The notes under the pieces are model-generated. The model ran no database searches. It worked only from the letters and a program-made list of their open reading frames with translations, and was not told where the DNA came from. A DNA stretch of 32,020 nucleotides from Candidatus Gracilibacteria bacterium CG12_big_fil_rev_8_21_14_0_65_38_15. Its GTDB lineage: Bacteria > Patescibacteriota > Gracilibacteria > BD1-5 > UBA2023. Every line of letters starts with the position of its first letter. Positions within the stretch are counted from its first letter, which is position 1. The stretch covers positions 1 to 32,020 of the forward strand of contig PCUR01000002.1 in the NCBI GenBank assembly GCA_002771035.1. The letters run 5' to 3'. The position numbers and the translations under genes are program-made. Positions 3,380 to 5,426 of this stretch are shown here, piece after piece.

Positions 3380-3409
3380 AAAAATACCCCGAAATTTCGG
3401 GGTATTTTT
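3380..3409. terminator. Perfect-stem intrinsic terminator
   Basis: AAAAATACCCCGAAA is followed directly by its exact reverse complement, with a CCCC/GGGG core and flanking A/T runs, immediately after the stop of the zinc-ribbon gene. The symmetric A- and T-runs would let it work in both directions. Confidence 0.9.
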
Positions 3410-3424
3410 ATAAGAAGCCAAATT

Positions 3425-3547
3425 CGGAATCTCCTGAAAAATGATGAAGTTCGTATGAAAATCGAGTACCGAAGCGAGCCATACGACTTGTACGGAGAGC
3501 GAGGAACGGAAGATTTGAATGCGAAATTCGCATTTTGCAGAGATTCC
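3425..3547. repeat. Palindromic repeat element, copy A (intergenic)
   Basis: Bounded by an 8-bp inverted repeat GGAATCTC (3426-3433) / GAGATTCC (3540-3547). Inside are two hairpins: CCATAC/GTACGG around 3479-3495 and AATGCGAA/TTCGCATT at 3518-3534. Read in one frame it encodes EVRMKIEYRSEPYDLYGE, resembling the peptide EIRMQSEHQSETYG encoded inside dusB at about 4964. The neighbouring minus-strand gene ends inside its right edge (3547). Confidence 0.6.
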
Positions 3548-4068
3548 TAAAATGTTGTAGTTATGTTTTTCAAAAGTACTCTCCTATCTTCTGGGAATTT
3601 GATATTTTCGGTATAGGCAACCACTTTTTGGAAAATACAATACGGATTATCTGAATTCCAAAAAAATCCGTTTCCTTCGAATTTCATAGGATTAAATTCC
3701 TGAAGCATTCCGGAAAATACATTCTGTTCTGGCATTATAGGAGTGATTCCTGCTTTCATGTATTGGATAACATCTACCCCTTCATATTCATTATCAAAAA
3801 CAAAAAAATCAAAACCTACAAGATCGTTTTGGGAAACCTTTTCAACAGTGATAATATTCGCGATATCTGTGTTTTCTCCACCTATAACAACTGCTCCGAG
3901 TCCGATAGCAGCGATTCATTCCGAAACGAATTGTCGTTTCTTTGGATCTTTAATAGCGATGATTCCGAGAGAATTTATCGCTTTTGGAAAGGAATATATA
4001 GACTGAAGATTTTTTTTTGCCATTTGTTTGATTTCTCGAATAGAAGTTTTTGAAGTATTCATTTCCAT
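3547..4068 (-). CDS. Conserved-looking hypothetical protein
   Basis: 173 aa, ATG at 4068 (MEMNTSK; alternative ATG at 4062), stop TAA at 3547-3549, one TGA=Gly. N-terminal half looks helical, then GLGAVVIGGENTDIANI and VDVIQYMKAGITPIMP, then an aromatic-rich C-terminus with EGNGFFW and FPEDRRVLLKN. The 'YMKAGITPI' stretch recalls the nucleotide-sugar-binding part of GT-B glycosyltransferases, but the protein is far too short for a full one. I do not recognise a family. It is transcribed towards repeat copy A, which may have supplied its 3' end. Confidence 0.65.
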
Positions 4069-4265
4069 GATAGAGATATTTATTTGATAAGAAGGGTTGA
4101 GTTTTCCCCCGATATCTATATACTACCACACCTATGGAGAAATCTCCAAATATTTGCATTTATTTTTGCTTGACGGTACAACTCTTTAGTCTTTAGTTTA
4201 CTGGACTTCAGATATGAAAAATCTGTTCTTTGCTCTTAGTTATCCTTATTTATACCTCTCTTATT
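4069..4265. other. Divergent intergenic region upstream of dusB
   Basis: Separates two divergently transcribed genes. It holds a possible -35 TTGACG at 4170-4175 for dusB, but no clear -10 at usual spacing. No RNA gene or repeat seen. Confidence 0.3.
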
Positions 4266-5426
4266 ATGTCCAAAGATTTCTGGAAAAATCTCGCTTCGAA
4301 TGGTCCTATCTGTACACTTGCGCCAATGGATGGGTACACTGACAGTCCTTATCGTCAGATTGTAAAAAGCATAGCGCCGAATACGGTGTGTTTTTCCGAA
4401 TTCTACAGTGCCGATGGACTTGTTCATAGTAAACAACTTCAACAAACCGCTCTCACTTATGATGCGAGCGAGAAACCACTTATCATTCAGATTTTCGGGA
4501 AAGATCCCGAGATGTTTCGTAAAGCGGCTATTCTTATCGAACAAGCCTGAGCTGCCGGAGTGGATGTAAATATGGGATGTCCTGCGAAAAAAGTCGTGAA
4601 AAGCGGGCATGGTTCCAGTCTTATGATTAATACAGATACAGCTTTTCGCATTATCGAAGAAATGAGTAAAGCTGTAAAAATACCCATTTCCGTCAAGACC
4701 CGCCTCGGATGGAACAATTGGGAAGAACATCTTATTCCTTTTGCCCAAGGTCTCCAGAATGCCGGAGCGAATCTCATCAGTGTCCATGGTCGAACCTATC
4801 AGCAGGCTTTCGATGGAAAAGCCGATTGGACTGGTATTTATGAACTCAAAAAAAACCTTTCTATTCCTGTAATTGGGAATGGTGATGTGCTCGATTATGA
4901 TGATGGGCTCAAGAAAATTCAAAATCCATTTAATCAGATGAAAAAGATTTCTGGAGGAATAGATGAAATTCGTATGCAGTCCGAGCACCAAAGTGAGACG
5001 TACTGAAATAGTACGGTGAACGAAAAGCGGAGGAATAAATATGAATTTCGCGATTCATCCGGAAATCTTGATGGATTCATGATTGGAAGAAGCAGTTTTG
5101 GTAATCCTTGGGCCTTCCTTCCGGGAAGTTATATCCCTACTCTTTCGGAAATCCTTATTATTATGCACGAGCATGGACGTCTCCTAGTCGAAGCGAAGGG
5201 ACGGAAAGGAATTCTCGAGAGTCGAAAACATCTTGTTCAATATCTTCATGGATTTCCCGGAGTCAAAGAATATAGAAAATCGCTCGTATCCGTCGAGAAG
5301 CTAGAAGATATAGACAATGTGCTCTTACGTATTAAAAGCGAGCATGCCGGGCTTTTAAATACGAAACTAGAACGTGGTAAGGAAGCGATGGTAGAATCTT
5401 GGAGTGGGGAAGATTGCAGTTTATAA
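4266..5426 (+). CDS. dusB: tRNA-dihydrouridine synthase with in-frame insertion
   Basis: FMN enzyme that reduces uridine to dihydrouridine in tRNA D-loops. 386 aa, ATG at 4266 (MSKDFWKNL), TAA at 5424. Seen: LAPMDGYTDSPYRQIV (FMN site), GVDVNMGCPAKKV with the catalytic Cys, SVKTRLGW, SVHGRTYQQAF, VIGNGD, and GFMIGRSSFGNPW. TGA at 4548 encodes the first Gly of the GxxGVDVNMGCP motif. Between VIGNGDVLDYDDG and the DGFMIGR motif lie about 50 extra residues, including EIRMQSEHQSETYG, which derive from a repeat element (see 4962-5060). Usual Dus proteins are around 320-340 aa, so the insertion explains the excess length. Assignment to DusB rather than another Dus is by overall resemblance. A strong terminator follows. 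Confidence 0.9.
4962..5060. repeat. Palindromic repeat element, copy B (in frame inside dusB)
   Basis: Shares with copy A the 5' block GAAATTCGTATG, the spaced CGAG/AAG-GAG blocks, a central hairpin (CGTACT/AGTACG at about 4999-5015, perfect 6-bp arms) and a terminal hairpin (ATGAAT/ATTCAT at 5041-5058). It contributes residues to DusB between two conserved motifs without breaking the frame. The in-frame TGA at 5004 is read as Gly. Confidence 0.55.

Follow-up and report, generated by a model that had tools for sequence, protein, structure and literature searches.

How does one palindromic sequence come to lie both between genes and within the coding sequence of a conserved tRNA-modifying enzyme? 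The question is raised by a 32,020-nucleotide stretch (the window) of contig PCUR01000002.1 from Candidatus Gracilibacteria bacterium CG12_big_fil_rev_8_21_14_0_65_38_15, a genome (G000) in which TGA is read as glycine (genetic code 25). A preliminary description of the window had proposed that an intergenic element and a segment of dusB are members of a single repeat family. The features relevant to this proposal are listed below, with positions counted from the start of the window.

3380 to 3411, no strand assigned: native bidirectional terminator-like hairpin, AAAAAATACCCCGAAATTTCGGGGTATTTTT, recognized in the sequence between the element and the left-hand gene.
3426 to 3548, plus strand: intergenic copy of the palindromic element, subfamily A (31 copies by blastn; covariance model E=1e-24; one hairpin of -44.6 kcal/mol).
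3547 to 3549, minus strand: TAG stop codon of the minus-strand gene at 3547-4068 (from the list of open reading frames; stop position +2; sister orthologues end at the same residue).
4266 to 5426, plus strand: dusB, encoding a tRNA-dihydrouridine synthase with an insert, in code 25 (two stretches match Pfam Dus, E=8e-69; nearest structures solved, 1vhn and 6ei9).
4926 to 5060, plus strand: 45 codons that are extra relative to insertion-free DusB orthologues (protein alignment, split matches; residues 233-277 of the 4230-5423 reading).
4944 to 5068, plus strand: dusB copy of the element, full length (covariance model E=9.5e-13; blastn 79% to copy C22:7976-8041).
4944 to 4952, plus strand: left arm of the dusB terminal stem, AAGATTTCT, complementary to the right arm.
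5061 to 5068, plus strand: right arm of the terminal stem, GGAAATCT, coinciding with host codons for GNL that insertion-free orthologues also have (compared with L117-L120).

The intergenic element is indeed a repeat. As a DNA query it returned 31 blastn matches in its own genome (1.01 Mb, 74 contigs), with E values down to about 1e-3 and many below 1e-10; its coordinates, first given as 3425-3547, shift by one nucleotide. A covariance model built from 26 copies (alignment A2), with the dusB copy left out, matched 70 places in the same genome and recovered the dusB segment, which confirms that the two belong to one family and that further copies are abundant. The dusB repeat had been placed at about 4962-5060, slightly short at its ends. 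Most copies are 121-127 nt long and a few are 143-163 nt, around a family unit of ~124 nt, and they fall into three or more subfamilies. A search of Rfam with the window stretch and four other loci gave nothing above the gathering score. Some copies are composite, carrying a nested hairpin of ~42 nt (CCACACGGACTCGATAAATCTTTTATAAGGTCCGGTGACATG) near the left end (L030:1340-1514, L091, and L101, on contigs C33, C66:15194, and C35:9991). Separately, the first ~100 bases of contigs C18 and C49 (L019, L023) share the same unique flank and carry different element copies; the genomes are metagenome bins, and this difference may reflect strain variation or an assembly effect.

Is the dusB segment an insertion, or simply part of the enzyme? 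Among 27 genomes of the family, 23 have a DusB without the insert (a count that includes proteins with a short native loop), three carry the palindrome (G000, G020, and G022), and one (G010) has an unrelated long loop at the same site. The added segment predicted in the preliminary description is therefore real, although closer to 45 residues than to the 50 first estimated. Neither of the two outcomes that would have spoken against the preliminary description, a lack of further copies and a segment conserved in all related DusB proteins, was observed. These data refute the alternative that the segment is a conserved domain of a Dus subfamily whose likeness to the intergenic element arose by chance. 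A short native loop (IIHP...) does occupy the same place in several other genera, but the segment is absent from most of the family, matches the covariance model over its full length, and, used alone as a DNA query, finds the copy at C22:7976-8041 with 79% identity and E=1e-9. An AlphaFold model of the protein (mean pLDDT 80.7, pTM 0.79) has a confident barrel, with the insert modeled at low confidence in the loop that joins helix 7 to strand 8 (helix 211-218, strand 270-273). In TIM barrels, a helix-to-strand loop of this kind faces away from the active site. We considered the insert as a clade marker and rejected it: the three carriers do not form a clade, and G025, the sister of G022, lacks the insert. 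Parallel insertion or repeated loss is thus needed to account for its distribution.

We next consider the structure that defines the family. The two copies in the window had been described as having two hairpins each; instead, nearly every copy of the family folds into a single uninterrupted, imperfect hairpin, in which purine internal loops recur regularly. In the 48 copies outside model building, 96.4% of paired cells hold standard pairs, compared with 83.5% after shuffling and 29-47% when the partner position is slid, and double-sided changes are found in 182 cells, at 16 of the 23 pairs. On one strand the internal loops are rich in purines (60.7% purine overall), and in 64 of 70 copies this strand is predicted to be the more stable one (by 8.6 kcal/mol on average). 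Together, the purine bias and the greater predicted stability suggest that selection acts on the purine-rich sequence as a single strand, whether of RNA or of DNA. The outer 8-10 bp vary among copies but pair inside each copy: the longest terminal pairing run averages 7.7 between a copy's own arms and 5.0 with the arms of other copies (best of 300 permutations, 5.6). Terminal inverted repeats, a criterion for miniature elements of the MITE type, are hence present as within-copy pairing arms whose sequence differs from copy to copy. Because the right arm in dusB coincides with host sequence coding for GNL, the terminal stem can be partly host-derived. The left arm could have come to match the host arm if, for example, template switching extended the palindrome.

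The dusB insertion is not an isolated case. At least 12 proteins, mostly housekeeping, carry a copy in frame, as counted by a scan that required an open frame through the element and that frame-broken insertions would escape. Beyond DusB these are RimO, MiaB, RsmA, MurB, PheT, TilS, RadA, a DnaQ/DinG-type protein, a BatA-like VWA protein, a UPF0020-type methyltransferase, and an MBL-fold protein. Sister orthologues of these proteins have empty sites in most cases, and all gaps that were measured are divisible by 3. Two further large open reading frames that span an element (C38:9660 and C36:15755) have no Pfam match and were excluded from the count; around the remaining copies, the neighbors look like separate genes. 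Some sites are filled more than once. The RsmA loop is also occupied in G021 (same subfamily) and in G023 (another subfamily), TilS has a copy in the same loop in G022, and so does the DinG-type protein in G020, while the RadA copy is antisense in G000 and sense in G020. Sites shared by different subfamilies or orientations, as in DusB, RsmA, and RadA, need hotspots, replacement, or loss to explain them. In MiaB, comparison of G000 with G020 shows GAAATTTCT on both sides of the insert, but GAAATTTCT is itself palindromic, making a target-site duplication ambiguous; none is clear at other sites. At the RimO loci of G021, G024, and G023 (L144, L145, and L147), element copies precede the part of the gene that encodes the radical-SAM region, which would seem to be a second insertion site within RimO or next to it.

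A second, GC-rich palindromic repeat was also encountered (CCTCACCCC...GGAGAGGGG.CGGGGGTGAGG, with a peptide like SPRPLGEGSGVRA; L195, L198, L199, L197, L183, L193, L200, and L173). In sister genomes it occupies these loops, likewise in frame, in BatA-like, RsmA, DinG-type, methyltransferase, and RimO proteins. The presence of this quite different repeat indicates that the loops themselves are permissive.

How these coding sequences remain open is explained by the genetic code. All 12 inserts contain in-frame TGA, at a density of 36 in about 504 insert codons versus 30 in about 5,370 codons for the rest of these genes. Read by the standard code, all 12 proteins would terminate within their inserts. 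The coding strand is the purine-rich strand in 11 of the 12 in-gene copies (P=0.006), the exception being RadA of G000, and nine of the 11 sense inserts use a common frame, with DusB and MurB in another. Peptides encoded by the purine-rich strand are hydrophilic in all frames (GRAVY about -0.9), compared with about +0.1 for the other strand. Inserts would thus be tolerated because frames that TGA would otherwise close stay open when it specifies glycine.

An insert could also leave a normal protein if it were cut from the mRNA or bypassed by the ribosome in the manner of an intron. The strongly structured hairpin, its near-exclusive sense orientation within genes, and sites inside essential enzymes, such as that in RsmA, which adjoins the NIPY motif, would all fit such a process. 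Nonetheless, we regard it as very unlikely. In every insert found the frame is open and the length is a multiple of 3, which removal or bypassing would make needless, even if the scan sought open spans first. Over all copies, code 25 leaves open only 87 of the 210 sense frames (code 11, 17), so that the openness of the in-gene copies looks selected. Finally, the inserts occupy length-variable loops that also carry other repeats or short native loops.

Outside proteins, many copies follow a different positional rule. In the window, the intergenic element is untranslated and runs at its 3' end into the stop codon of the gene on the minus strand, with the native terminator on its other side; sisters have a similar hairpin near the stop codon and lack the element (L218, L219, L222, and L226). 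The same arrangement recurs across the genome: in 37 of 70 copies the element's 3' end lies no more than 3 nt from the stop codon of an antisense gene (open reading frames of at least 75 codons), and sense-direction genes show no peak at the element end in these 70 copies. The boundary extends to other genomes, where it was found for 14 of 20 copies, chosen by score, at positions -4 to +2 (in G001, of another genus, and in G023). For 16 of the stop-codon genes, we read most of the orthologues from six sisters; their C-termini are unchanged and the element is mostly absent, and it therefore lies between the stop codon and the downstream sequence without truncating the gene. In several cases, one stop codon bears different subfamilies in different species. 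A strict right-end target motif of TTA/CTA was considered and rejected; it fits the stop-codon copies but only about 4 of the 12 in-gene copies. The boundary may reflect target choice or selection.

This boundary raises the alternative that the element is mainly a functional RNA structure at 3' ends, terminating or protecting mRNAs, with the in-gene copies as by-products. Over half of the copies abut a stop codon, the element is kept at the same stop codon in several species (S13, C39:15788 gene), and truncated relics (L285 and L253) retain the stop-proximal half, all as this reading would have it. However, most sister orthologues are element-free at that position, often with an ordinary terminator or almost no spacer in its place; the hairpin, in that orientation, is not consistently followed by a run of U; of the two strands, the one that folds better is antisense to the preceding gene; and the in-frame copies in 12 proteins are left unexplained. 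We therefore consider a primary role at 3' ends improbable, if less so than removal from the mRNA.

The abundance of the element differs among genomes. Copy numbers are 10-70 within its own genus and 24 and 127 in a neighboring genus; other genera of the family mostly have 0-5 copies, and the rest of the order has almost none. The species tree is nearly star-like. No transposase partner or autonomous copy was identified, the transposase search being for Y1. A Y1/RAYT enzyme was rejected as the partner: PF01797 is absent from five of the seven genus genomes (G021-G025), including G023, which has 61 copies. Matches to this domain number 14 in G020 and a single weak one in G000. The latter (C58:24177-24512, L298) lies about 0.5 kb from the MurB insertion.

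The preliminary description had likened the family to the palindromic elements of Rickettsia (RPE; Ogata et al. 2000, 2002), and the analogy is apt: both comprise palindromes of similar size that lie in frame within conserved genes unrelated to one another and encode a hydrophilic product. In PMC2229807 and PMC10969869, RPE are described as ~105-150 bp long, with a long stem-loop and terminal inverted repeats, and as both intergenic and in frame in many unrelated conserved genes, as here; the mobilizer is known for neither. Traits of the RPE kind found in the present family are a long stem-loop palindrome of ~100-150 bp, in-frame inserts missing from orthologues, a preferred reading frame, and, in the DusB model, an insertion site compatible with the fold. 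The Gracilibacteria element differs in belonging to another phylum that uses code 25, in the use of TGA as glycine by every in-gene copy, in the location of over half of its copies at the stop codon of an antisense gene, and in its regular purine internal loops. Based on this comparison by description, the best reading is that the element behaves like RPE but belongs to another lineage.

The element is also MITE-like. ERIC/RU-1, YPAL/RU-2, and Correia/NEMIS are MITE-like palindromes of 100-170 bp that, according to PMC2759123 and PMC2229807, likewise give long stem-loop transcripts and occasionally fuse with open reading frames; for YPAL, target sites at dyad symmetry and empty and filled sites are described. 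In-frame internal insertion in housekeeping enzymes is rare in such families and a stop-codon boundary is not described in the accounts consulted, and, unlike them, the Gracilibacteria element shows no evident TA target. REP/BIME sequences with RAYT (Y1) share the palindromes, a preferred strand, and many copies, but REPs are 20-40 bp and extragenic (PMC2817692), and the Y1 transposase is missing from most Gracilibacteria carriers. We found nothing relevant on such repeats in Gracilibacteria in the openly licensed literature.

Taken together, our results are probably best explained by a nonautonomous, lineage-specific mobile palindrome whose copies settle behind stop codons or in frame in permissive protein loops. 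Such an element would have spread through the Gracilibacteria of its own genus and the neighboring genus. Its purine-rich strand is predicted to form one long rod interrupted by internal loops of the tandem G-A type, a fold that selection keeps, probably because a mobilizing enzyme recognizes that single strand. Copies are found at two types of site: between a stop codon and the sequence downstream, directly behind the stop and antisense to the gene that it ends, or in frame within loops of conserved proteins that permit them, where the purine-rich strand is the coding one. In the latter, the element would be translated as a hydrophilic loop of ~41-45 residues, presumably harmless and tolerated through TGA as glycine. 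A more specific version, in which integration of the hairpin is directed to stop codons in the antisense orientation, sites are reused by subfamilies, and spread into proteins was enabled by the change of UGA to glycine, is offered only tentatively, and we lean against it.

The invasion of conserved proteins by palindromes, in frame and on a large scale, was long taken as a peculiarity of Rickettsia (and Wolbachia). A further family in the candidate phyla radiation would point to a recurrent process in small, reduced genomes. Its total reliance on in-frame TGA ties the tolerance of mobile DNA to an altered genetic code in a way that can be tested, and the stop-codon boundary, which recurs in two genera, is a sharply defined and unexplained rule of targeting or selection. 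Gene annotation in Gracilibacteria should expect such inserts.
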